In this document: positions 7,258 through 39,884 of the stretch, one piece after another
How the letters are laid out: every line of letters starts with the position of its first letter
How positions within the stretch are numbered: position 1 is the stretch's first letter
Source: Sulfurimonas aquatica
Lineage (GTDB): Bacteria > Campylobacterota > Campylobacteria > Campylobacterales > Sulfurimonadaceae
Assembly (NCBI RefSeq): GCF_017357825.1
Contig: NZ_CP046072.1
Coordinates: 1,054,001 to 1,118,000 of the forward strand
Reading direction: 5' to 3'
DNA length: 64,000 nt
The notes under the pieces: generated by a model
The model's input: only the letters and a program-made list of their open reading frames with translations
What the model was told of the DNA's origin: nothing
Database searches by the model: none
Position numbers and translations under genes: made by a program

Positions 7258-8466
7258 ATGAAAGAATATATATCCCTCCTGCAAACGCAACCAATCCTTA
7301 AACGGCTCTCTTTAATACAACTTATTTCATATTTTGGAGCATGGTTTAGTAATGTTGCAATTTATACACTTTTACTAGACATGGATGTTGCTCCAAGTGT
7401 AATCGCTCTTGTCGCAATGCTTCATTTTTTAGCTGGTGTAATTCAAGCGCCTTTTTCAGGTTCCATTATAGATAGTTTCGCTCCAAAAAAGTTGATGCTA
7501 ACGCTTATATTTACAGAGATAATTGCAACATTTTGTCTTATTTTTGTATCTTCATTATCTGACTTATGGCTTTTATACATACTTATACTTGTTAAAATGG
7601 CAGCAGCATCTTTTTACTTTACAACTGAAATGTCGCTACTTCCAAAGTTATTAGATGGGGATAAACTTCAAAAAGCAAATGAGATTCATTCTATTATTTG
7701 GTCACTTTCATACACACTAGGTATGGCTCTGAGTGGCTTTGTAGTTTATTGGTTTGGAGTGAAGTTAGCCTTTATTTTAGACGCGTTTATGTTTGTCATC
7801 GCATTTATCTTACTTTTCAATCTTGAGATTAAAGTAGAGATGATAAAAACGGGTGAAAACTTTCTGCAAATGATGCGGGGTACTTTTGGTTATCTCAAAG
7901 GACACCCTTTAGCAATGCACCTTATGATACTTCATTCATTTGTAGGTCTAACGGCATTTGATGCTTTAGTCGCACTGATGGTTGATAAATACTACTCTGC
8001 AATCATTGCAACATCATTGGCACTAGGTTTACTCCACTCTGCACGTGCAGTTGGCTTAGTGATTGGACCTATGGTCATCTCTAAATGGATTAATAACAAA
8101 CGCTTGATATATATTTTTATATTCCAAGGTTTTGCTATTTGGTTATGGGCATATGTGATGCATAATTTTTATCTTTCACTTTTAGCCAGCATAGTTGTGG
8201 GTTTCTTTACAACAACGCTTTGGTCTTACACTTACACGCTACTTCAAAAGAATATAGAAGAGAAATATTATGGCCGCATTGTTGCATACAATGACATGTT
8301 GTTTCTAAGTTCAGCAACTCTTACCTCTTTCATGATAGGTTATCTTTCAACGCATGAGTATTCATTAGAGAGTATTAGCGTCTATATTGGCATTGGTTTT
8401 CTTCTTGGAGCAATCTATTTCGCATGGATTTTAAAGAGTCAAAAGATAAAGGATATAAAAGAATGA
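7258..8466 (+). CDS. MFS family transporter
   Basis: A 402-residue integral membrane protein with about 12 hydrophobic segments. The layout fits the major facilitator superfamily, of the EntS/Bcr-like efflux type (N-terminal region QLISYFGAWFSNVAIYTLLLDM, later MVISKWINNKRLIYIF). Substrate cannot be read from sequence. The start at 7258 has no ribosome site, but a GATAAT box lies just upstream. Its TGA overlaps the ATG of the next small membrane protein (ATGA), so the two are coupled. Confidence 0.85.
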   Translation: MKEYISLLQTQPILKRLSLIQLISYFGAWFSNVAIYTLLLDMDVAPSVIALVAMLHFLAGVIQAPFSGSIIDSFAPKKLMLTLIFTEIIATFCLIFVSSLSDLWLLYILILVKMAAASFYFTTEMSLLPKLLDGDKLQKANEIHSIIWSLSYTLGMALSGFVVYWFGVKLAFILDAFMFVIAFILLFNLEIKVEMIKTGENFLQMMRGTFGYLKGHPLAMHLMILHSFVGLTAFDALVALMVDKYYSAIIATSLALGLLHSARAVGLVIGPMVISKWINNKRLIYIFIFQGFAIWLWAYVMHNFYLSLLASIVVGFFTTTLWSYTYTLLQKNIEEKYYGRIVAYNDMLFLSSATLTSFMIGYLSTHEYSLESISVYIGIGFLLGAIYFAWILKSQKIKDIKE

Positions 8467-19230: not shown

Positions 19231-21378
19231 GAAGCTAACATTAATAGAGAGTCTCTTATAGAGACTCTAAGTCTTTATACAAAAGTTTATCATAAACATT
19301 TTAGCGTTGAATCGCTTAGTGCTGGACTCCCAAAGGAGTTAGGAAAAAGTGATTTAGAACTTTTTAGCGTAAAAGATTCAAAATCCCTCTTTACTCGTGC
19401 TTCACTAAACGCTGGATTAAAATCAAAACTTATAGAAATAGATTTGCATAACATATCTACTCTTCAGCTGCCTATGATACTGCTACTCTCATCAAAAGAG
19501 TCTTGCATCATAGATTCTTTGAGTGAGGATAAGAGCAGAGCAAAGATAATAACATCAGACAATCAAGACATACTAGAACAATGGGTTAATTTAGATGAGT
19601 TAAACAAGAATTACCTTGGCTTTTCATATATGATTAAAAAAATCTATAAGTATGAGAATGAGCAAACAAATACACTGAAAATAGACCAAAAACACTGGTT
19701 TTTCTCAACCATAAAACTTTCTAAAAACATATATAAGGACGTATTTTTAGCATCTATACTTATAAATCTTTTTATACTAGCAACGCCACTTTTTACTATG
19801 AGTGTTTATGATAGAGTAATACCAAATAACTCAATAGAAACGCTTACTGTCTTTGCGGTTGGCGTTTTAGTAGTTTATATAATCGACTTTATATCAAAAT
19901 ATATACGTTCGACCCTTCTTGAAGTAGCTGCGAAAAAGAGTGACGTCATCATCTCTTCAATAATTTTTGAAAAAGTTATGGATATAAAAATGAGTAGTTT
20001 TCCCTCTTCGGTTGGTTCGTTTGCAAACAATCTCAAAGACTTTGATACCCTAAGATCTTTTTTTACTAACTCTACTCTGACGGCACTAATTGATTTTCCT
20101 TTTGCGATTCTCTTTTTAAGCGTTATATATTACATTGGTGGCAATATTGTTATCGTTCCTCTTACAACCATAGTTATACTTCTTATTTTCGCACTTCTTA
20201 TTAAAGGGCCAATTCAAAAGTATATAGAAGAACTCCATCAAGTCTCTGCACAAAAGAGCTCTATCATTGTAGAATCACTTCAAAACATAGAAACGCTAAA
20301 AACTTTAGGAATGTCTTCTCATATGCAGTGGTCTTGGGAAGAGACAGTGGGACAATCTGCTTCTATCGGTCTTAAGTCACGTATTTTATCATCACTCATT
20401 CCAAACGTAACAAGTTTTTTTATGCAGTTAAACAGTGTACTTGTAGTTGTTTACGGCGTTTTTCTTATAAAAGACTTTGAACTTACTATGGGTGGACTAA
20501 TCGCCGTAGTTATTTTGACTTCTCGTGTTTTAGCTCCTATGGGACAGGCAACTGGGCTTATCACAAACTATGAAGATGCGAAAACTTCTTATAAAATCAT
20601 AGATGATATTATCAACCTTCCAAGTGAAAGAGCGGAAGCTTCTAAGTATGTGGAGTATCCAAGTTTTGAAGGTGATATAGAGTTTAAAAATGTAAGTTTT
20701 GCTTATCCTGGAACTGACGTTTTAGTCTTAAACGACGTCTCATTTTCCATTAAAAGTGGAGAGAGAGTAGGGATAATTGGCAGGATTGGTTCTGGAAAAA
20801 GCACTATAGAAAAGTTAATACTACGTTTGTATGAGCCAACGGAGGGAACAATTCTACTCGATGGAATAGACATCAACCAAATTAACCCTGCAGATTTGCG
20901 TCGAAATATTGGCTACGTCTCTCAAGAGATACAGCTCTTTAAAGGGACGCTTAGAGATAACATCATCTATAGAGCTTCGTATGCAAGTGATGAAGAGCTA
21001 AAACGCTCTAGCAAAATCAGTGGAGTTGAAGAGTTTGTTAAAAGACATCCTCTTGGATTTGATATGCCAATTGGTGAGAGAGGAACGGGAATCTCTGGTG
21101 GTCAAAAACAAGCCATTGGAATAGCAAGGTCTTTTCTTTACAATGTATCCATAATGCTTTTTGACGAGCCTTCAAACGCCATGGACCAACTTACAGAGAA
21201 TAACCTAATAAACTCTTTTAAAAAGAACCTTAGAGGTAAAACGGCACTTGTGGTAACTCAAAAAATGAGTATGCTTGAAGTTGTTGAGAGAGTTATAGTG
21301 ATGAGTGAGGGAAGAGTCTATCTAGATGGAAAAAAAGCAGACGTAATTAAAGCTCTTCAAGGTGGAAAAAGTGCATAA
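19228..21378 (+). CDS. LapB-like type I secretion ABC transporter (permease-ATPase), probable ATC start
   Basis: From ATC 19228 the protein is 716 residues, the usual LapB length. It has an N-terminal C39-like domain without the catalytic Cys (ESLSAGLPKELGKSDLELF), six membrane helices (~155-420) and a complete ATPase: Walker A IGRIGSGKST, signature SGGQKQAIGIARS and Walker B IMLFDEPSNAMD. Standard start rules would choose TTG 19444 and lose most of the C39-like domain. Exporters of this class secrete large RTX adhesins, whose substrate contacts the C39-like domain. It lies between the TolC-OmpA gene and the HlyD adaptor. No adhesin gene is visible in the window. Confidence 0.88.
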   Translation: MEANINRESLIETLSLYTKVYHKHFSVESLSAGLPKELGKSDLELFSVKDSKSLFTRASLNAGLKSKLIEIDLHNISTLQLPMILLLSSKESCIIDSLSEDKSRAKIITSDNQDILEQWVNLDELNKNYLGFSYMIKKIYKYENEQTNTLKIDQKHWFFSTIKLSKNIYKDVFLASILINLFILATPLFTMSVYDRVIPNNSIETLTVFAVGVLVVYIIDFISKYIRSTLLEVAAKKSDVIISSIIFEKVMDIKMSSFPSSVGSFANNLKDFDTLRSFFTNSTLTALIDFPFAILFLSVIYYIGGNIVIVPLTTIVILLIFALLIKGPIQKYIEELHQVSAQKSSIIVESLQNIETLKTLGMSSHMQWSWEETVGQSASIGLKSRILSSLIPNVTSFFMQLNSVLVVVYGVFLIKDFELTMGGLIAVVILTSRVLAPMGQATGLITNYEDAKTSYKIIDDIINLPSERAEASKYVEYPSFEGDIEFKNVSFAYPGTDVLVLNDVSFSIKSGERVGIIGRIGSGKSTIEKLILRLYEPTEGTILLDGIDINQINPADLRRNIGYVSQEIQLFKGTLRDNIIYRASYASDEELKRSSKISGVEEFVKRHPLGFDMPIGERGTGISGGQKQAIGIARSFLYNVSIMLFDEPSNAMDQLTENNLINSFKKNLRGKTALVVTQKMSMLEVVERVIVMSEGRVYLDGKKADVIKALQGGKSA

Positions 21379-22696
21379 AAATAGATTACACTCTGAAGAT
21401 TATGAATATATAAACTCACTCTCACAGGCAGTTTTACAAAAGTCTCCTTTTAATCTTCGCATAGTTCTATATCTTTGGACATTAGTTGTTGTAGTCTTTT
21501 TACTCTGGGCTAACTTGGCAAAGATAGATGAGCTTGTTCGTGCGGATGGAGAGATAGTTCCCGGTGGAGATAATCAACTCATTCAAAATCTTGAGGGCGG
21601 AATAATTGAAGAGATATTAGTTTCAGAAGCTCAAATGGTAAAAAAAGGGGATGTCTTAGTTAAGATTGACAATAGAAAGTCAACATCTACCTATGCATCA
21701 AGCAGATTAAAGTCTCAAGAACTCCAAGCACAGATATTTCGTCTTAAAGCAGAAGCTACAGGTTCTGATTTAGAAGTTGATAAGAAGTTTAGAAAAAAAT
21801 ACCCAGAGCTTTATAAACGCGAAAAGAAACTCTACAGTATAAATAAAAGTTACATTGACTCTCAGAGTAATATTCTTAAACAACAGAAGTACCAAACAGA
21901 GAGTGAATTAAGAGAGTCTCGTACAAGAGTAAAAGATTTAAAGCGTAGTTTAGCGCTTATTAAAGAAGAGATAGTCATAAATGAGCCTATGGTTGAAAAG
22001 GGCATAAAGTCTAAAATAGACTTCTTAAAACTTCAACGCGAAGAGAATGACATACGTGAACGCTATAACTCAGCAAGAGAGTTAATCCCGCGTTTAAAAT
22101 CTTCTCTTAGAGAGATAGAAGAAAAAAAGTCAGAGATTAAGCAACGTTTTATGAGTGAGGCGCAAGAGAAGTTAAATGAACTTACTTCAGAGCTTTTAAG
22201 GATAGAAAATAAATCTGACGCCCTGCAAGATCAGGTAAAAAGAACCGTGGTTATCTCTCCTGTAAATGGGCATGTGCAAAAACTATTTGTGCACACTCTT
22301 GGTGGCGTTATAAAGCCAGGAGACGACATAGTTGAGATAGTTCCCTCGGATGCCGCTCTTTGGGTAGAAGTAAATGTTAAACCGGCAGACATCGCATTTA
22401 TATATCCATCGCAAGAGGCAATGGTAAAGATAAGCGCTTATGATTTTGCAATCTTTGGTGCGCTAAAAGGCGAGGTAGTAAGCATAAGCGCAGACACTAT
22501 TATGGATTCAAAAGAAAATAGATTTTATAAAGTCAAAATTAAAACACAGGTGAGTCAGTTCTCTAAAGAGAGAAAAATAATTCTTATGCCTGGTATGACT
22601 GTAAACGCAGATATCATTACTGGCAAAAAAACCGTAATGGATTATATTTTAAAGCCAATACTTAAGACTAAGCAGTATATGTTTAGCGAGCGATAA
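21371..22696 (+). CDS. HlyD family periplasmic adaptor of the type I secretion system
   Basis: A ~441-residue membrane fusion protein. It has an N-terminal membrane helix (IVLYLWTLVVVVFLLWANLAKID), a biotinyl-lipoyl half-motif (ADGEIVPGGDNQLIQNLEGGI), a long coiled-coil hairpin (~120-270) and the family-typical VISPVNGHVQKL..VHTLGGVIKPGD. It bridges the inner-membrane ABC exporter and TolC. I prefer the GTG at 21371, nine bases after AAGG, over GTG 21362, which touches that motif. It overlaps the exporter gene by eight bases. Confidence 0.9.
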   Translation: MHKNRLHSEDYEYINSLSQAVLQKSPFNLRIVLYLWTLVVVVFLLWANLAKIDELVRADGEIVPGGDNQLIQNLEGGIIEEILVSEAQMVKKGDVLVKIDNRKSTSTYASSRLKSQELQAQIFRLKAEATGSDLEVDKKFRKKYPELYKREKKLYSINKSYIDSQSNILKQQKYQTESELRESRTRVKDLKRSLALIKEEIVINEPMVEKGIKSKIDFLKLQREENDIRERYNSARELIPRLKSSLREIEEKKSEIKQRFMSEAQEKLNELTSELLRIENKSDALQDQVKRTVVISPVNGHVQKLFVHTLGGVIKPGDDIVEIVPSDAALWVEVNVKPADIAFIYPSQEAMVKISAYDFAIFGALKGEVVSISADTIMDSKENRFYKVKIKTQVSQFSKERKIILMPGMTVNADIITGKKTVMDYILKPILKTKQYMFSER

Positions 22697-31646: not shown

Positions 31647-31666
31647 TTGAAAAAATAAGGTTGTCC

Positions 31667-32050
31667 ATGAAGCATGTTTTTAAAATAGAAAAACTCCCTA
31701 TATTTATCAAGTTTTTCATTACTTTAATTCTATACTATAGTGTTAAAGATTTTACTTTAATTAACTCGTTTACAAAATTGGCAGTAGCTCTGCTAGAGTT
31801 TATCATCATCTTAGAGTTAGTTCGAATGCTAATAGATTTTCTTTTTAGTGATGAGAACCGTATTAATCTAAGACTTATGATAGATTCAACCATAGTCTTC
31901 TTTATTCGCGACGTTTTACTTATCGTTACTGAAAAATTTGATTCGATTAAAATATTTTCTATGCTTGGCATAATATTGTTACTATTTATATTTAGAATTA
32001 TCGCTATGAAATACAGTCCCTCTCATATGGAAAGCAAAAAAATAGCATGA
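31667..32050 (+). CDS. PsiE family membrane protein
   Basis: A 127-residue protein with four hydrophobic segments and the PsiE-like pattern LLEFIIILELVRMLIDFL..LRLMIDSTIVFFIRDVLLIVTE. PsiE was named as a phosphate-starvation-inducible protein; its biochemical role is unknown. The ATG at 31667 is six bases after AAGG; the upstream TTG 31661 touches that motif and is less likely. The Sel1-repeat gene follows 26 bases downstream. Confidence 0.8.
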   Translation: MKHVFKIEKLPIFIKFFITLILYYSVKDFTLINSFTKLAVALLEFIIILELVRMLIDFLFSDENRINLRLMIDSTIVFFIRDVLLIVTEKFDSIKIFSMLGIILLLFIFRIIAMKYSPSHMESKKIA

Positions 32051-32076
32051 AAAATATTTATAAAAGGTTGGTTTAA

Positions 32077-32703
32077 ATGAAAAAATTAGTATTGGCGTTT
32101 AGTTTACTTTTTAGTATAACTCTCTATGGAGACTTGTATGAAAAGGCTCTTGATGAGTATGAAAATGGCAATGTAAAAATAGCTGCGGGCTTATATTTAA
32201 AATCTTGTGATAATGGAAACAGTAATGCCTGTTATAAATTAGGAATGATGCATGTTAAAGGCGAAGGCGTAAGCCAAAACAATAAAATAGCAGGTAGCCT
32301 TTTTGTAAAATCATGTGACAATGGTAATGCTGATGCATGTTTTAACCTAGGTATAATTTATGAAGATGGAAAAGCAGTAGTAAAAGATAAACTAAAGGCT
32401 AAAAAGTTTTATGAAAAAGCTTGTGAAGGTGATAGTTCAGATGGATGTTTGTATCTAGGAAAAATGTACTTAAAGGGAAAAGTAGTAAAACAAGACTATA
32501 AAAGAGTGATTGAACTTTACAATAAATCATGTAATTTAGAAAATGGCGAGAGTTGTTATAGTTTAGGTCTTATGTACTTAGAAGGTGAAGGTGTAAGAAA
32601 GAATAAAAGTACTGCTAAAGAATACTTTGGAATTGCCTGTGATAATGGAAATAATAAAGGGTGTAAACAATACCGTACTCTCGATAATGTAAACACCAAG
32701 TAA
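32077..32703 (+). CDS. Secreted Sel1-repeat protein
   Basis: A 208-residue exported protein with a signal peptide (about 1-18) and about five Sel1-like repeats. Each repeat has the paired-cysteine pattern seen in Helicobacter Hcp proteins (SCDNGNSNACYKLGMMHVKGEGV; SCDNGNADACFNLG; ACEGDSSDGCLYLG; SCNLENGESCYSLG). Such repeats form disulfide-stabilised helix pairs that mediate protein binding, probably in the periplasm or outside the cell. The partner is unknown. Confidence 0.9.
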   Translation: MKKLVLAFSLLFSITLYGDLYEKALDEYENGNVKIAAGLYLKSCDNGNSNACYKLGMMHVKGEGVSQNNKIAGSLFVKSCDNGNADACFNLGIIYEDGKAVVKDKLKAKKFYEKACEGDSSDGCLYLGKMYLKGKVVKQDYKRVIELYNKSCNLENGESCYSLGLMYLEGEGVRKNKSTAKEYFGIACDNGNNKGCKQYRTLDNVNTK

Positions 32704-32723: not shown

Positions 32724-33515
32724 TTATCTCTCGATCTTTTTTCGCCACTTTTGTACAAAAAGTGATGTGATAATTACCATACTCATCATTATCGACACTG
32801 CGTAGTAAGTACCTATTTCACCAGTTGCAAAAGGTAGGCCAGTCGTATTCATACCAAAAAAACCAACTAGAAGGTTTAGCGGAAGGAATATAGCTGAGAT
32901 AATGGTTAGAATATAGATCATTTTATTCATTTTATCATTAGATTTTGCATTGTAAAAACTGTATAAATAGTCTAGTTTAGAGAGTTGTAGCATTGCTGAA
33001 CGCATTGTTCTTTCCATATGCTCATGTATGTCTACATAATGATTCATAGGAAATCCATCAACATCTTTGTTGTAGTCAATAAACTCTTCCATAGTAGTTG
33101 CAGTTCTAAGTAGTACTCTTTCTATACGTAATATTTCTAGTTTTACAGCTAGCCAATTATTTAAAAAATCACTATCCGCCATATCTGAGTATAAACTCTC
33201 TTCCATATCTGAAATAGTCTCTGCATATTTTAAAAATGATTTGAGTAATTTATCAAGTACCTTATCAACTAAAGTGTAGGGACCCATATAGACGCCATTT
33301 AACTCTTCGAACTTATTCTCTTTTATATTATAGAAATAACTATTCTCCTTTGTAAGGATAAAACCTAAAGAAACATTGTTTAATTCATCAGTTATAACAG
33401 GAATACGAAGAATAAGCATGTCGTATGTCTCATTTTCGTCAAAAATTGCAGGGTGTTTTTCATTATGTAAATCTTCTAAATGAAGCTTATCAATTAACTC
33501 TTCTACATTTTGCAT
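32724..33515 (-). CDS. CorA-like magnesium/divalent cation transporter
   Basis: A 263-residue protein. Two C-terminal membrane helices flank the diagnostic GMN motif (GFFGMNTTGLPFA, at about 225-237), followed by a positively charged end (QKWRKKIER). The cytoplasmic N-domain is shorter than in classical CorA (~315 aa). GMN marks the selectivity loop of CorA/Mrs2/ZntB channels. Mg2+ is the likely ion, but Zn2+ (ZntB-like) is possible. Monocistronic, convergent with the Sel1-repeat gene. Confidence 0.85.
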   Translation of the reverse strand: MQNVEELIDKLHLEDLHNEKHPAIFDENETYDMLILRIPVITDELNNVSLGFILTKENSYFYNIKENKFEELNGVYMGPYTLVDKVLDKLLKSFLKYAETISDMEESLYSDMADSDFLNNWLAVKLEILRIERVLLRTATTMEEFIDYNKDVDGFPMNHYVDIHEHMERTMRSAMLQLSKLDYLYSFYNAKSNDKMNKMIYILTIISAIFLPLNLLVGFFGMNTTGLPFATGEIGTYYAVSIMMSMVIITSLFVQKWRKKIER

Positions 33516-33677: not shown

Positions 33678-34637
33678 ATGGATATTAAAAAGAAACTTAT
33701 CTCTAATGTCGTTAGTATAGTTAAAGAGGATAAACAAAATATCTTTTATCTTATATACTACTCTGTGATAGAAGCGATTCTATTGCTTTTTATCCCTTTA
33801 GCAACATCATTTATAATAAATAGTATTTTGTCTCACTCAACAATATCTATCGCAGTTCTAGGTACTATCGTTGTTATCAGCTTTATTTTAACCACTTTAC
33901 TGCAAGTAGCAAAGCAGTATATCATTGAAAAATTTGAACAGAAAATTTTTGTAACTACAGGAATTAAAATAGCATCAATGGCTATGAAAATGAGAGCCTC
34001 GAGTGAAAATGTAAAAAATTTAATAGATAAGCATATGAACTATTTTTTTGACATTGGAGCGATACAAAAAATATTTCCAATACTACTTCTAGATGGAACT
34101 GCTCTTGTAGTGAAGTTACTCTTTAGTCTACTCTTGTTATTTGTGTTTGATATTACACTGTTTTTAGTAGGGTTATTCTTTTTTGTAGTATTCGTGATTT
34201 TATTATTTGTACTTGGTCGCAATGGAATTACCTATAGTATAGAGCGTTCAAACACTAAACATGATGCTATATATTATTTACAAAATATCCCCGAGATGGA
34301 GGGTGAAGAAGATAGTATACTCAAAGAGTTTGACGAGCATTTGATTAGGTTTGTTAACGCAAGAGTGAAAATATTTCATGTTGTAATGAGACAGCTAACA
34401 CTTACCTTTATAATTGAAGGTTTGGTTTTTAGTTCATTTTTGATTATCGGAGGTTACTTAGTTATCAATAGTACTCTCCCCTTAGGTGAGTTTGTCGCAG
34501 CAGAGATAATTGTCGTCTCCATTACAAGTGCACTCAAAGATTTTATGAAGCAGATAGATTATATCTATGATATGACAGAAGGATTTTATAAAGTAGAGAA
34601 ATTATCTCTTACATTACAAGGAGATGAACATGTCTAA
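33678..34637 (+). CDS. ABC exporter transmembrane domain without ATPase domain
   Basis: A 319-residue membrane protein that aligns by eye with the six-helix exporter domain of ABC type I secretion proteins: paired hydrophobic helices ~25-75, ~130-185 and ~245-290, and the closing helix VVSITSALKDFMKQIDYIYDMTEGFYKVEKL. It stops at residue 319, where the nucleotide-binding domain would start; Walker A, signature and Walker B are all absent. The next gene overlaps its stop, so no ATPase remnant follows. Its neighbours are an HlyD adaptor and TolC. It may borrow an ATPase, act passively, or be a scaffold. Confidence 0.8.
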   Translation: MDIKKKLISNVVSIVKEDKQNIFYLIYYSVIEAILLLFIPLATSFIINSILSHSTISIAVLGTIVVISFILTTLLQVAKQYIIEKFEQKIFVTTGIKIASMAMKMRASSENVKNLIDKHMNYFFDIGAIQKIFPILLLDGTALVVKLLFSLLLLFVFDITLFLVGLFFFVVFVILLFVLGRNGITYSIERSNTKHDAIYYLQNIPEMEGEEDSILKEFDEHLIRFVNARVKIFHVVMRQLTLTFIIEGLVFSSFLIIGGYLVINSTLPLGEFVAAEIIVVSITSALKDFMKQIDYIYDMTEGFYKVEKLSLTLQGDEHV

Positions 34638-35910
34638 GTACAAATATGAAGCATTAGAGATGCTACATCTTCATCCCTTCGTTAGAAAAGTATGGCTAGT
34701 TAGTTCAATAGTCTTTTTTATCTTTGTTTCAATGCTTTTTTTACCCTGGGAGCAGACTATAAAAGGTGAAGGAAAACTTATTGCAACAGACCCTATGCAA
34801 AGAGATTATAACATTTTAGCTACGATAGATGGTTTTGTAGATGAAGTATATGTACATGAAAATCAGTTTGTTAAAAAGGGTACACCGCTTTTTAGACTTG
34901 TTGACCTAGACAAAGAATATGATGAGAAATTAAAATCTATTCACCTTAGCTCTCAAGAACAGTATGTAGATTTTCAGAAGCAGGTAGAAAATATTCAAGA
35001 AAAAGGTGATAATTTAGAGAACTACCTCAGAGTTGGACTAAATGTTTATACTCAAAAATTCCAACAGATTAAAAATAAGATAGAGAGTTTACGTCTTAAG
35101 AAGGTCTCTTTAGAAAAAAATCATGAGATAGAGAAACTGAATGTTTCAAGATTGGAAACACTCTATAAAGAGGGAATAGAGTCTAAGAGAAATTTTGATT
35201 TAGCGCAAAATATTTATGTAAAAGCAGAAGCAGAGTTAAAAAAGATAGATATTGATATAGAGATAGAAAATAATAATCTAGATATTATCAAACAAGAAAA
35301 AGAGAAGTTTTTAAAAGAGACACAAAACAAGATTAAACTCTTAGATAACTCTAGTTTAAACTCTAAAGCAAAATTGAAATCTATTTCTCAAGATATTCAA
35401 AGAAATAGTTTAAATGTGCAGCGTTACGAGAGTGGGACTGTTGTAGCTCAAAGAGATGGCTTTATTGTACGAGTACTACAAAATGAAAAAAATCGCCTAA
35501 TAAAAAAAGGTGATCCTATCATTCATTTTTCACCCTTGATTTCAGATAAAAGTATTCTCTTAAAGATTTCAGACTTTAATATGCCACTCTTAAAAGAGGG
35601 CTTACCAGCTAGAATCATGTTTTATGGTTGGCCAGCACTACAAATATCTGGTTGGCCAAAAATCCGTTATGGAACATTTGCCGGAGTAGTAGAAAAAGTA
35701 GAGCCGATTTCACATGAGAAAGGTTTTTACTATGCAAGGGTTGTAGAAGATCCTAAAGAACCATGGCCTAAAGGTGATAACTTGAGAGTAGGGACTCAGT
35801 CTACTATATGGGTGAGGCTAAATACTGTGCCAATTTGGTACCAAATGTGGAGACTCATGAATGCTTTTCCCCCACAGATGCTTACTCCAGTTGTAGAGAA
35901 GAAAAAGTGA
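34630..35910 (+). CDS. HlyD family periplasmic adaptor of the ATPase-less exporter
   Basis: A 426-residue membrane fusion protein. It has an N-terminal membrane helix (LVSSIVFFIFVSMLFLPW), a lipoyl-like half (GEGKLIATDPMQRDYNILATIDGFVDEVYVHENQFVKKG), a long coiled-coil hairpin (~100-260) and the second half RDGFIVRVLQN. The C-terminal VPIWYQMWRLMNAFPPQML is typical of this adaptor subgroup. I chose ATG 34630, six bases after AAGGAG; ATG 34624 touches that motif. It overlaps the upstream gene by eight bases and the downstream TolC by four (GTGA). Confidence 0.88.
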   Translation: MSKYKYEALEMLHLHPFVRKVWLVSSIVFFIFVSMLFLPWEQTIKGEGKLIATDPMQRDYNILATIDGFVDEVYVHENQFVKKGTPLFRLVDLDKEYDEKLKSIHLSSQEQYVDFQKQVENIQEKGDNLENYLRVGLNVYTQKFQQIKNKIESLRLKKVSLEKNHEIEKLNVSRLETLYKEGIESKRNFDLAQNIYVKAEAELKKIDIDIEIENNNLDIIKQEKEKFLKETQNKIKLLDNSSLNSKAKLKSISQDIQRNSLNVQRYESGTVVAQRDGFIVRVLQNEKNRLIKKGDPIIHFSPLISDKSILLKISDFNMPLLKEGLPARIMFYGWPALQISGWPKIRYGTFAGVVEKVEPISHEKGFYYARVVEDPKEPWPKGDNLRVGTQSTIWVRLNTVPIWYQMWRLMNAFPPQMLTPVVEKKK

Positions 35911-37265
35911 GATACTTCTTAGCTCTACAGCTCCTCTTAGTAGAACTTGTAAGTGCGAATGAGCTCTTTAAAAAAGAGATGATTCTTGAGTATTTTAAAG
36001 AGTCTAATCCATTTGTATATAGCGCCATAGCAAATGAGAATAGATATAAAAATCGAGACCTCTACTATCAAGGTGAGTTAGATAACAAACTCTTTTTAAA
36101 GTATGACAAAAAAGAGTACCCAGTCAGTGAAGCTGAGTTTTTTGACATAGGTGTGCAAAAGCCACTTGAAAATGGCATAGAACTAACTTTGGCATATAGA
36201 AAGGCAGAAGGTACACAAGAGTCTAACAACATCAAAACAGGTGATGATGGGGAGGCTAGGGTTGGAGTAAAACTACCGCTATTTTCTTTAGCCCATGGTA
36301 TGAACGATAGAAAGTTAAATATTGAGACTGCAAGGTTACAGAGGGTTAACCTGAGTAATGATTCCAAAAATAATTTAAGAATTCTATATTTTAAGACCTA
36401 CTCTGAATATGCAAAAGTTCTTTACTATAAAGCTGTGATAGAACTTCAAAAAGAACTTTTAAACAAGGCAAAAAAGAGAGAGAGTATAGTTAGTGATAGA
36501 GTAAATGTTGGTTCTGTGGCAGAAGTAGCCCTTTTAGAAGCACAACAACAAATTATCAACAGAGAGCAGTCTCTCATCTCATCAGAAAATGAGTTCTCAT
36601 ATGCACTAGAGAACTTTTTAAAGTATCTTAATATTTCACGCGAAGAGTTTGAAAGTCAGTATAGACTCTTTAAGCTTGAAGAGATAGAACATGCAAAAGT
36701 TGATTATGATGAGTTCTTAGGGATGGCGTTAGAGAATAGGCCAGATTTAAAAAAGTATGACATAGAACTAAAAAAAATTAAGTTGGAGCAAAAACAGACT
36801 AACTTACTAAACTATCCAAAAATGGACCTATCTTTTTATGGAGTGCACGACTTTGAATATGAGAGTGGATTTAAAGTGGCGTTGGATATGGATTTTCCAA
36901 TAGAGAGACGAAAGTACGACGCGAAAGTTCTGGAAAATAAAAATAGTGTTTTAATGATGCAAACAGATAAGGCTAAAGAGATATTAAATATCAAAACAAA
37001 TCTCCTTAACATTGTAAACTCGTTAAATACAATAGAGATGAATTTGGCTAGTTCAAAAAAAGAGATAGAGCTTCTTGAAACATTAGAAAAAGCAGAAAAT
37101 AAAAAGTATGTTTTAGGAATGAGTAATCTATTTATGGTTAATCAACGCGAAGTATATACCTTGGAAGTGAAGAAAAAAGCGCTCAAATATAACTTTAAGT
37201 ATCTTCTACTTGAACAAGAAGCACAAAGAGAAGCGGGCTTCTCTTTTAAAGAGTTAAGACTGTAG
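35907..37265 (+). CDS. TolC family outer-membrane protein of the ATPase-less exporter
   Basis: A 452-residue TolC-like protein with a signal peptide (FLALQLLLVELVSA) and two TolC helical repeats (e.g. RVNVGSVAEVALLEAQQQIINREQ and LENRPDLKKYDIELKKIKLEQKQT). The GTG at 35907 overlaps the adaptor stop as GTGA; an earlier in-frame ATG at 35808 would put the signal peptide ~33 residues inside the protein. It forms the outer-membrane exit for the preceding adaptor. Its last 12 bases overlap the convergent valS. Confidence 0.88.
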   Translation: MRYFLALQLLLVELVSANELFKKEMILEYFKESNPFVYSAIANENRYKNRDLYYQGELDNKLFLKYDKKEYPVSEAEFFDIGVQKPLENGIELTLAYRKAEGTQESNNIKTGDDGEARVGVKLPLFSLAHGMNDRKLNIETARLQRVNLSNDSKNNLRILYFKTYSEYAKVLYYKAVIELQKELLNKAKKRESIVSDRVNVGSVAEVALLEAQQQIINREQSLISSENEFSYALENFLKYLNISREEFESQYRLFKLEEIEHAKVDYDEFLGMALENRPDLKKYDIELKKIKLEQKQTNLLNYPKMDLSFYGVHDFEYESGFKVALDMDFPIERRKYDAKVLENKNSVLMMQTDKAKEILNIKTNLLNIVNSLNTIEMNLASSKKEIELLETLEKAENKKYVLGMSNLFMVNQREVYTLEVKKKALKYNFKYLLLEQEAQREAGFSFKELRL

Positions 37266-39884
37266 AGATTCTAACTGCTCTTTAACTTTTATAAGCTTAG
37301 CTTCCGCATCCGCTAAAGCCTCACGGTTTTTCGTAAGCACATCTTCGGGTGCATTTGCGACGAAACGCTCATTTTTAAGCATGCCATTTAGTTTGTCTAT
37401 CTCTTTTTGAAGTTTCTCATCTTGTTTTGTAAGTTTTGAGATAATAGAGCTCAAGTCTATAGAATCAGTTGGTATAAATGTCTCACAAAAGTCAGAGATG
37501 TCACTCACGGCGTTTTCTATCTTAGTCTGAGTAAACTCTACCTCTGTTACTTTAGCAAGTTTTATAATGAAAGGAAGCATCATATTTTGCTCATCTTCAC
37601 TTATACCATCTATCTTTACAAATGCTTTTTCTATTTTTTGGTTTGCCAAATCAACAAGTACTTTTGCACGACGAATAGATACGATAGCGTCCATGATAAC
37701 GTTGAACTTTTTCTCTTCAGCTTCTCGTTGTTTTGTTTTATGAGGATAAGGCATAATCATGATAGAGTCGCTATCTTCTAAAGACGTTCCAGATAACTCA
37801 TGGTAAAGATACTCTGTAACAAAAGGCATAAATGGGTGAAGTAGTTTCATTGCCTCTTTAAAGATAGCTCCAAGTTCAACTATAGAAGCTTTGTCAGCTT
37901 TAGATAGCTCGATTCCCCAACCACAAAACTCATTCCATATAAATCTATATATGATAGTCGCGGCATCATTAAATTTGTACTCATCCAGTGCTGCGCGAAC
38001 CTCTTTAGTAGCTACGTTTAAACGCGATGTCATATACTTACCAAGTTCAGTCTCTACACAAAAGCCTGCCATGTCTGGGAATACATCTACATTCATCTGC
38101 AAGAATTTCGCAGCGTTGTATAATTTATTTGTGAAGTTACGGTTTAACTCAAGCTTTTCCGTACTCATTCTGATGTCACGACCTTGCGCCGCTGAAATTG
38201 CAAGAGTAAAACGCAGGATATCTGCAGAGTATTGATTTACCATGTCAAGAGGGTCGATGACGTTACCCTTAGACTTAGACATCTTATCGCCTTTTTCATC
38301 ACGAACGAGAGCATGAAGGTAGATGTGCTTAAATGGAAGCTCGCCATTGAAGTTTTCACCCATCATCATCATTCTAGCTACCCAGAAGAAAAGAATGTCA
38401 AATCCAGTGATAAGAAGAGTGTTTGGATAGAAGTCTTTCATATCGTCTGAGCGAAAAAGTTTGTCCATCTCAACATCACCATTACCCCAACCTAGAGTTG
38501 AGAACGGCCATAGAGCAGATGAGAACCAAGTATCTAAAACATCAGGGTCTTGTGTTACATTTTTACAAGCACACTTTGGACAAGCTTCAGGTGCATCTTC
38601 TTGAGAAACAAACTCGTGGTCGCACTCATCACAGTAAAATACTGGAATCTGATGTCCCCACCATAACTGACGAGAGATACACCAGTCACGAAGTTCACCC
38701 ATCCAAGAGTTGTAAGAGTTTATCCAGTGAGGAGGGAAAAACTGTGCTTCACCTGCATTTGTCTTCTCTATAGATTTAGCGGCTACGTCTTTTTTAACAA
38801 ACCACTGTCTTGAGATATATGGCTCAACGATATTTTTACATCTGTAACAGTGTCCTACTTGATGCTTATGGTCCTCTATCTTAACGATAAAGCCTTCTTC
38901 TTGAAGTCTGTTTACGATAGTCTCACGAGCCTCTAAACGCTCTAAACCTTTAAACTCGCCAGCATAGTCGTTTAATATACCTTTTTCATCAAAAACTGTA
39001 ATGAACTCTAGGTCATGGCGTTTACCAACTTCGTAGTCATTCTGATCATGTGCAGGTGTAACTTTAACTACACCAGTTCCAAACTCCATATCAACATGAG
39101 AATCAGCGATGATAGCAACTTCTCTATCAAGTAATGGAAGTTTTATTTTTTTACCGATTAGGTGAGTGTAACGCGAGTCATCAGGATGAACCATAACTGC
39201 AGTATCACCAAAATACGTCTCAGGACGAGTAGTTGCAACTTCAACACTACCACTTCCATCAGCAAAAGGGTAAGTGATATGGTAGAACTTACCATCATGG
39301 TCTTCGTGTTCTACTTCGATGTCAGATAATGCACCATCGTGTGTACACCAGTTAACCATGTAGTTTCCACGAACGATTAGTCCTTGGTTATAAAGATGAA
39401 CAAAAGACTCTTTTACAGATTTTTGGAGTCCCTCATCCATAGTAAAACGCTCTCTCTCCCAAGCTGGAGATACTCCCATCTTACGAAGTTGGTCTGTCAT
39501 AATCCCAGCAGACTCTTCTTTCCAAGCCCAAGCACGTTCTAAAAATTTCTCACGACCTAACTCTTCTTTAGTCGTTCCCTCAGCTAAAAGTTGCTTCTCA
39601 ACTACATTTTGAGTAGCGATACCCGCATGGTCCGTTCCTGGTTGCCATAGTGTTTTATATCCGTCCATACGCTTGTAACGAGTGATGATGTCTTGAAGTG
39701 TAAACGTAAGTGCATGACCGATGTGTAGACGACCTGTGACGTTTGGCGGTGGCATCATGATAGAGAATTTTTTATCTTCTCTTTGGATGGCTTTGTTTCC
39801 ATCTACTTCAAAGTACTTTCTATCTTCCCAAATTTTATAATATTTGTTTTCTGTCTCTTGTGGATTGTAAGCTTCTGATGCCAT
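37254..39884 (-). CDS. valS: Valyl-tRNA synthetase
   Basis: An 876-residue class I synthetase. The HIGH motif is in PPPNVTGRLHIGHAL (about 48-62) and KMSKS in DKMSKSKGNVIDP. The editing domain contains ATTRPETYFGDTAVMVHP, and the C-terminal ~65 residues form the ValS coiled-coil arm. It charges tRNA-Val and edits Thr. Length is normal. It is monocistronic and overlaps the 3' end of the convergent tolC-like gene. Confidence 0.98.
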   Translation of the reverse strand: MASEAYNPQETENKYYKIWEDRKYFEVDGNKAIQREDKKFSIMMPPPNVTGRLHIGHALTFTLQDIITRYKRMDGYKTLWQPGTDHAGIATQNVVEKQLLAEGTTKEELGREKFLERAWAWKEESAGIMTDQLRKMGVSPAWERERFTMDEGLQKSVKESFVHLYNQGLIVRGNYMVNWCTHDGALSDIEVEHEDHDGKFYHITYPFADGSGSVEVATTRPETYFGDTAVMVHPDDSRYTHLIGKKIKLPLLDREVAIIADSHVDMEFGTGVVKVTPAHDQNDYEVGKRHDLEFITVFDEKGILNDYAGEFKGLERLEARETIVNRLQEEGFIVKIEDHKHQVGHCYRCKNIVEPYISRQWFVKKDVAAKSIEKTNAGEAQFFPPHWINSYNSWMGELRDWCISRQLWWGHQIPVFYCDECDHEFVSQEDAPEACPKCACKNVTQDPDVLDTWFSSALWPFSTLGWGNGDVEMDKLFRSDDMKDFYPNTLLITGFDILFFWVARMMMMGENFNGELPFKHIYLHALVRDEKGDKMSKSKGNVIDPLDMVNQYSADILRFTLAISAAQGRDIRMSTEKLELNRNFTNKLYNAAKFLQMNVDVFPDMAGFCVETELGKYMTSRLNVATKEVRAALDEYKFNDAATIIYRFIWNEFCGWGIELSKADKASIVELGAIFKEAMKLLHPFMPFVTEYLYHELSGTSLEDSDSIMIMPYPHKTKQREAEEKKFNVIMDAIVSIRRAKVLVDLANQKIEKAFVKIDGISEDEQNMMLPFIIKLAKVTEVEFTQTKIENAVSDISDFCETFIPTDSIDLSSIISKLTKQDEKLQKEIDKLNGMLKNERFVANAPEDVLTKNREALADAEAKLIKVKEQLESLQS

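Follow-up and report, generated by a model that had tools for sequence, protein, structure and literature searches.

Tripartite pumps and type I secretion systems (T1SSs) are classed by their energized inner-membrane component, which is of the ATP-binding cassette (ABC), resistance-nodulation-division (RND), or major facilitator superfamily (MFS) type. Here, a 64,000-nucleotide (nt) stretch of the Sulfurimonas aquatica genome (contig NZ_CP046072.1, positions 1,054,001–1,118,000; hereafter the window) was analyzed for a three-gene operon that encodes a transmembrane (TM)-only ABC-exporter protein, a HlyD/EmrA-type adaptor, and a TolC-family outer-membrane channel. The HlyB–HlyD–TolC system and the T1SSs of the LssB subfamily share with this operon the transmembrane domain (TMD) of ABC exporters, a HlyD adaptor with the RxxxLxxxxxxS (RLS) motif, a TolC-family channel, and the arrangement in one operon. 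They differ in possessing a nucleotide-binding domain (NBD), which the TM-only protein lacks and which, in its sister lineages, has no Walker-B Asp, LSGGQ signature, or Q-loop Gln. The proton-dependent EmrAB–TolC pump is likewise tripartite and has an EmrA-like adaptor, as here, but its inner-membrane component is an MFS protein and not an ABC fold.

SbmA imports peptides, carries an additional TM0, goes back to a YddA-like ancestor, and is not known to have HlyD or TolC partners, whereas the TM-only family would come from a type I secretion/NHLM-like exporter. In common with the TM-only protein, members of the SbmA/BacA family (SLiPT) descend from full-length ABC proteins (YddA in their case) and retain the type IV ABC-exporter TMD but no NBD; according to the consulted sections of PMC13316013, SbmA has lost both the NBD and the coupling helices and is proton-driven. 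The NBD-less MsbA (MsbA-MD) is likewise a bare ABC-exporter TMD. A pH gradient drives it both in cells and in proteoliposomes, ethidium is still exported in this way, and a transport-inactive variant is mutated at acidic residues in TM helices 1, 3, and 5 (PMC4979069, in part). MsbA-MD is, however, an engineered truncation that is less efficient than the full protein (same excerpts of PMC4979069), and the TM-only family would be its natural, conserved counterpart with tripartite partners. On balance, we consider that the operon probably, though far from certainly, encodes an ATP-independent, proton-driven tripartite exporter, in which the changed energy source would be new while the partners and the fold are known.

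An ABC-exporter transmembrane domain with intact tripartite partners

The original prediction held that the ABC component ends where its NBD should begin, and our analysis bears this out. In the alignment to full-length relatives, the 319-residue protein ends within the TMD–NBD linker. Its top NCBIfam match, TIGR03796 (NHLM_micro_ABC1; E 3.6e-11), covered positions 138–447 of the 710-position model, i.e. the TMD part, with 42 bits, far under the full-length cut-off of 853 bits, and the NBD part of this model was left unmatched in the NCBIfam scan. Pfam ABC_membrane was found only at E 0.027, under its cut-off. The NBD of a T1SS, with its Walker A, Walker B, and LSGGQ motifs, is thus absent from this gene, as it is from all 21 genus copies.

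An AlphaFold2 model of the protein (17-row alignment; pLDDT 72.7, pTM 0.64) was compared with known structures. The top Foldseek matches in the PDB were ABC exporters, namely ComA (E 2.9e-4), followed by TM287/288, Sav1866, and HlyB/D, with superpositions that were weak overall (TM-score 0.47 for ComA; TM-scores of ~0.5 or less and rmsd ~12). VIA-align superposed the model on P-glycoprotein with a Z of 22.4 and an rmsd of 3.3 over 306 residues. The TM-only protein is thus predicted to possess the type IV ABC-exporter TMD fold. A profile search of the PDB with the TM-only family returned no significant relative (best E 0.55), and no SbmA/BacA family model was found among the Pfam or NCBIfam matches of the protein (E up to 1). 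SbmA was not among the 50 matches listed by Foldseek or VIA-align, which carries no weight.

The HlyD and TolC partners were found intact and tightly coupled, as had been proposed. The adaptor matched Pfam PF13437 (HlyD_3) above its cut-off and TIGR01843 with E 6.5e-20 and 71.5 bits, under the curated cut-off of 208.65 bits. The RLS motif, described in the available portion of PMC3391258 as the TolC-binding motif of the adaptor hairpin tip, is invariant at its Arg, Leu, and Ser in 17/17 adaptor rows. Judged by these features, the adaptor belongs to the HlyD family with its docking motif for TolC intact. Its model displayed one TM helix and a long hairpin (residues 95–267; pLDDT ~87–95 over most of it), and the top Foldseek match was EmrA (E 9.1e-15). 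The third gene product matched the OEP domain of TolC-family channels (Pfam PF02321, E 2.6e-27). As for the gene junctions, the most likely hlyD start is the ATG at 34630, which is preceded by a Shine-Dalgarno sequence (AAGGAG) and results in the anticipated overlap with the TM gene stop, here of 8 nt. The most likely start of the channel gene is the GTG at 35907, which overlaps the hlyD stop and would give a protein with a signal-peptide-like N terminus; it replaced, on reading of the sequence, a start at ATG 35808. With these starts, both gene junctions overlap.

The TM-only operon is patchy and maintained by purifying selection

Whole-genome searches covered the phylum of the window, supplemented by one pattern scan of genome contigs. 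The genus search took in 135 genomes, and 26 of them matched the TM protein (E up to 1e-3). Of these, 21 carry the TM-only form (the genome of the window among them), four a canonical-looking T1SS protein (frames of 593–605 aa, 21–25% identity), and one a remnant. The 21 TM-only copies are near-full-length, with open frames of 310–364 aa and 43–63% identity to the protein of the window. In an even draw across the phylum, 6/397 genomes (own included) matched at E up to 1e-10, and the operon is therefore patchy in the phylum. The contig scan yielded 17 loci, several on contigs that were also in the genus search, from genomes or metagenome-assembled genomes labeled Sulfurimonas, Sulfurovum, Sulfuricurvum, Arcobacter, Hydrogenimonas, and 'Epsilonproteobacteria'.

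The same gene order recurs at these loci, in agreement with the expectation that TM-only homologs would be found in this order elsewhere. The TM, HlyD, and channel genes follow each other in 16 of the 17 scan loci (in one of them with the TM gene cut at the contig end), and the remaining locus is a fragment. HlyD lies immediately downstream in all 20 other genus copies; 14 of these were seen with short flanks, three of which show the start of the channel gene, the flanks being too short in the remainder. Neighboring genes were compared for 21 loci, after omission of two duplicate contigs, the fragment, and the remnant. The three genes were present in the same order in 21/21 loci, which argues that the arrangement is not due to chance, and they were the only genes common to all; no second ABC half accompanies the operon. 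Other neighbors were common to at most seven loci, and their sharing was lineage-local.

The ratio of nonsynonymous to synonymous substitution rates (dN/dS) was 0.033–0.082 for the TM gene and 0.053–0.075 for the HlyD gene (five pairs each), and the TM-only operon is thus under purifying selection. These low ratios, together with the recurrence of the TM-only form in the genus and with its adaptor in the contig loci, and its presence in one-contig genomes, make it next to incredible that the gene is a pseudogene or an ordinary T1SS ABC gene truncated recently. Decay of the operon does occur in some genomes: one of the 21 TM-only copies (G092, L028) carries an in-frame TGA, and in genome G009 (L016, ~7856–8071, minus strand) a 71-codon remnant of the TM gene sits between the very genes found on either side of the intact operon in L012, which indicates that the operon can be lost by natural deletion.

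The closest outside relatives carry a catalytically dead NBD

The closest relatives found outside the phylum were from Bacteroidota and sphingomonads. A tblastn search in plasmids gave eight records (Persicobacter, Riemerella, Aureibacter, and Novosphingobium), and a second round added sphingomonads; 16 relatives were taken, leaving out three sphingomonad records at 53–59% and duplicate Riemerella records. Fifteen of the 16 are full length, and the ABC–HlyD–TolC order is present at 15/16 loci. The exception is the plasmid of Sphingopyxis sp. 113P3 (L094), where the ABC frame breaks off inside the NBD; an annotated IS3 transposase follows directly, and the examined stretch showed neither a HlyD nor a TolC partner.

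NBD motifs were scored at aligned positions, and the truncated Sphingopyxis frame was counted only where it reaches. The Walker-B Asp and the LSGGQ signature were each found in 0/15 relatives and the Q-loop Gln in 0/16, while the Lys at the P-loop position is retained in 4/16 (both Persicobacter, Riemerella, and Aureibacter) and the Glu at the catalytic position in Riemerella and Croceicoccus. Six controls, including two from the genome of the window, keep Walker A, the Walker-B Asp, the signature (ISQGQ in one), and the Q-loop Gln. Since Pfam still detects the NBD above its cut-off in 4/9 relatives, the domain is decayed rather than absent, and by its motifs it is catalytically dead. The H-loop His was dropped as a measure of deadness because 2/6 controls also lack it. 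A bare LSxGQ text pattern was likewise rejected as a signature, as it occurs in 13/16 dead-NBD proteins, with the Novosphingobium copy sitting at the start of TM6.

In a tree of the TMDs, the 27 TM-only proteins formed one clade (support 100/100), and together with the dead-NBD proteins (43 in total) they split from 12 canonical proteins (100/98). The canonical rows, all with a P-loop and LSGGQ-type signature and 10/12 with the strict Walker-B pattern, have long branches in these trees; with five long-branch controls removed and the TM-only rows thinned to 13, the split stayed at 100/99. Nodes that would set the branching order inside the dead clade reached only 88/77 and 80/45, and monophyly of the dead-NBD proteins was not rejected by the approximately unbiased (AU) test (p 0.248). 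The adaptors of the TM-only and dead-NBD operons likewise belong together: a profile of the TM-only adaptors gave 167–234 bits for eight adaptors from dead-NBD operons and no more than 39 bits for canonical HlyDs.

A recent truncation would have been signaled by orthologous loci whose gene includes an NBD, and none was seen: the relatives that do bear an NBD are only ~21–28% identical to the TM-only protein, and their NBDs are dead. From this distance and state, the loss of the NBD looks old and graded. The order of events, with death of the NBD preceding its deletion, is suggested by the series of forms and not by the tree.

A described system may belong to the dead-NBD sister family, namely HlyBD2-OMP2 of Blastomonas fulva, a sphingomonad tripartite cluster comprising a 1659-bp hlyB, an adaptor, and an outer-membrane protein matched to N. 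aromaticivorans (PMC9505733, in part). This assignment is judged by lengths and host group only; in the accessible text of PMC9505733 the cluster is described as an ordinary ABC efflux system with no mention of the state of its NBD. Two other reports were considered and set aside. The SecA_DEAD T1SS-like loci are different, having no ABC transporter homolog according to their authors (excerpts of PMC4452313), and the S0-induced HlyD/TolC genes of Sulfurovum indicum could not be tied to the TM-only family from the sections consulted (PMC10045233). We found no published description of such an ATPase-less tripartite exporter in the open-licence literature.

LysR-type regulator genes adjoin several sphingomonad dead-NBD loci, upstream of the ABC gene in L087, L088, and L094 and downstream of the operon in L084; two of them are annotated 'hydrogen peroxide-inducible genes activator'.

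A shortened docking loop and no dedicated partner among four solo ATPases

A TMD without its own NBD could still be energized in trans by one encoded elsewhere. The genome of the window has 29 ABC_tran matches, and the solo NBDs scanned were LptB, nitrate-, MacB-, FtsE-, phosphonate/importer-, Mod-, LolD-, Znu-, MlaF-, PstB-, Nik/Opp-, and Wzt-like proteins and a 191-aa orphan. A scan of their neighbors showed that most have a permease-type neighbor, while five have no recognized one (LptB, the FtsE-, LolD-, and Nik/Opp-like proteins, and the 191-aa protein). Four of these five were counted across the genus, LptB, which scored as an equivalog, standing outside the count. They occur in 122 (191-aa), 123 (LolD-like), 129 (Nik/Opp-like), and 122 (FtsE-like) of the 135 genomes, and in 76–77 of the 79 better ones, compared with 21/135 for the TM-only operon. 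None of the four can thus be regarded as a dedicated partner, which is the outcome of the suggested look for an orphan exporter NBD in this genome. Nor was an NBD gene found in the flanks of the 21 compared loci (phmmer, E up to 1e-5; up to seven genes upstream and ten downstream where the locus reaches). The 191-aa orphan ABC ATPase gene lies beside a dUTPase gene (L074, 2608–3183, minus strand).

The docking site for an NBD is also altered. Intracellular loop 2, which connects TM4 and TM5 and serves as the NBD docking loop, has 38 residues in 26 of the 27 TM-only proteins and 39 in the other one, in comparison with 44 in all 16 dead-NBD and all 12 canonical proteins, and is therefore shortened by six residues in 26/27 and by five in 1/27. 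The tips of both loops are least conserved in the TM-only family (0.44 and 0.40, against 0.56–0.86 elsewhere). SbmA has lost the coupling-helix contact, and the TM-only branch resembles it in loop 2 only.

The shortened and poorly conserved docking region, the near-universal occurrence of the tested solo NBDs, the flanks free of NBD genes, and the sister lineages carrying their own dead NBD all argue against sharing of an ATPase. In its favor, five solo ATPases without a recognized permease neighbor are available, a near-universal ATPase could still be co-opted, and the genes for the YddA TMD and NBD are split between operons (passages of PMC13316013). Taken together, we regard energization by an NBD in trans as quite unlikely. 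The original prediction of an 'energy-independent or ATPase-sharing' tripartite exporter is supported in part: its first half is better read as ATP-independent, and its second is disfavored.

Even if the TM-only protein were a half-transporter and found its other half in a canonical, full-length ABC exporter made by the cell, the NBD sandwich would still require two NBDs in the partner. Such pairing is highly improbable given the shortened loop 2 and the lack of an NBD gene in the flanks of the 21 loci, although there are known exporters that work as heterodimers and have a degenerate site, e.g. TmrAB (PMC8277102, in part; see also the available part of PMC7756269).

Conserved glutamates and the likeliest energy source

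ATP is unlikely to drive the exporter, which has no NBD of its own and whose loop for docking one supplied in trans is shortened. Proton motive force is probably the likeliest energy source, and a proton-driven exporter is favored since both SbmA and the NBD-less MsbA run on protons. Conserved glutamates offer candidate coupling residues. At the position of Glu276 in TM6, all 27 TM-only and all 16 dead-NBD proteins have an acidic residue but none of the 12 canonical ones does; the position of Glu301 is acidic in 27/27 TM-only proteins; and positions 32, 247, 271, and 301 are not acidic in the dead-NBD proteins. Glu276 would accordingly be a candidate of the whole clade, with Glu32, Glu247, Glu271, and Glu301 setting the TM-only branch apart. 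Conserved glutamates are also present in the TMD of SbmA, with its glutamate ladder.

A rival reading is an unenergized conduit, a continuous path that the TM protein would gate and through which the substrate would follow its own gradient downhill. In its favor, no energy domain is encoded beside the intact HlyD adaptor and channel, and the present results do not separate it from proton coupling. The conserved intramembrane or juxtamembrane glutamates better fit coupling or gating than a passive pore, and the homologous TMDs are established alternating-access transporters (PMC13316013, in part). We therefore consider the conduit unlikely.

Several observations weigh against proton-driven export. 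Loop 1 is not shortened, its length of 34–42 residues in the TM-only proteins overlapping the 32–37 of the full-length ones. Glu32 (25 Glu, one Asp, and one Lys of 27) and Glu247 (24 Glu and three Gln) are not strictly conserved; Glu271, acidic in 27/27, is also Glu in 3/12 canonical controls; and the alignment register to these distant controls is uncertain. The TM cores are not enriched in acidic residues (means of 3.9 in TM-only, 1.2 in dead-NBD, and 4.5 in canonical proteins), so the glutamate argument draws on the conserved positions only. The dead NBD of the relatives could still be structural, and Riemerella, alone among the 16, has a complete P-loop. Lastly, the adaptor model is globally poor (pTM 0.40, with low confidence outside the hairpin), and its likeness to EmrA is no proof that the two rely on one kind of energy source.

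Weighing these points, we still favor a proton-driven exporter with the following mechanism. The TM protein would be what remains, as the transmembrane half, of an ABC exporter resembling those of type I secretion. The NBD of this exporter would have become catalytically inactive in the sister lineages and would have been deleted in Campylobacterota along with part of the docking loop. The TM protein would form a dimer with the ABC-exporter fold and dock the HlyD-type adaptor, and the substrate would pass through the TolC-like channel, export being the expected direction because of the HlyD and TolC partners. Protonation of the conserved membrane glutamates may then drive alternating access, i.e. 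proton/substrate antiport. The broader scenario is more tentative: T1SS-type ABC exporters may have become proton-driven secondary transporters independently of SbmA, in a lineage spanning at least three phyla, with the NBD either dead (Bacteroidota and sphingomonads) or deleted (Campylobacterota).

Operon layout and neighborhood

The three genes run in one direction at positions 33678–37265 of the window, as read from the open reading frames (ORFs) and the sequence. They are flanked by a CorA-like gene (32724–33515, minus strand) and a valyl-tRNA synthetase gene (37254–39884, minus strand).

Table 1. Features of the ATPase-less export operon (window coordinates).
Feature	Position	Strand	Remarks
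TM-only ABC-exporter protein	33678..34637	+	319 aa, no NBD
Intracellular loop 2 region	34230..34343	+	Residues 185–222 of the TM protein; coupling helix 2 region
Glu276 codon, TM6	34503..34505	+	Residue acidic in TM-only and dead-NBD rows, not in canonical rows
HlyD/EmrA-type periplasmic adaptor	34630..35910	+	426 aa
RxxxLxxxxxxS (RLS) TolC-docking motif, adaptor hairpin tip	35149..35184	+	R174/L178/S185
TolC-family outer-membrane channel (OEP)	35907..37265	+	452 aa

Rfam gave zero matches anywhere in the window, and a promoter scan returned nothing convincing. Upstream of the CorA-like gene lie genes for a PsiE-like membrane protein and then a Sel1-repeat protein (31661–32703, plus strand). 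The window also holds a canonical LssB-type T1SS ABC gene with an intact NBD, followed by a HlyD-like gene (19444–22696, plus strand). This ABC gene, whose ORF extends upstream of the start shown, lies ~11 kb from the ATPase-less operon and served as a control.

A substrate gene beside the operon was sought among the neighbors and rejected, as single neighbors at ten loci had no common theme (porins, NAD-binding/DUF2867, P-type ATPase, molybdopterin oxidoreductase, M50 peptidase, AraC regulator, and PHO4 phosphate transporter). No neighbor beyond the three operon genes was conserved across the 21 loci as a substrate candidate. Four Sulfurovum loci (L038, L042, L043, and L045) have a 511–512-aa gene directly after the operon, which in the case of L038 is that of a PHO4 phosphate transporter, and L042 has a phosphate-porin-like gene upstream of it.

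Implications

The annotation 'ABC transporter ATP-binding protein' in such operons can mislead on the energy source. Set against the classing of tripartite systems into ABC, RND, and MFS types, the TM-only family has an ABC fold without an ATPase, and it is kept under purifying selection. If our reading is true, a proton-driven tripartite exporter built on an ABC fold would be a kind of pump for which the open-licence literature gave us no description. The TM-only and dead-NBD lineages together resemble naturally occurring stages on a path that leads from ATP-driven transport to transport independent of ATP, and they make export by an ABC TMD without an ATPase testable beyond the engineered MsbA and the importer SbmA.

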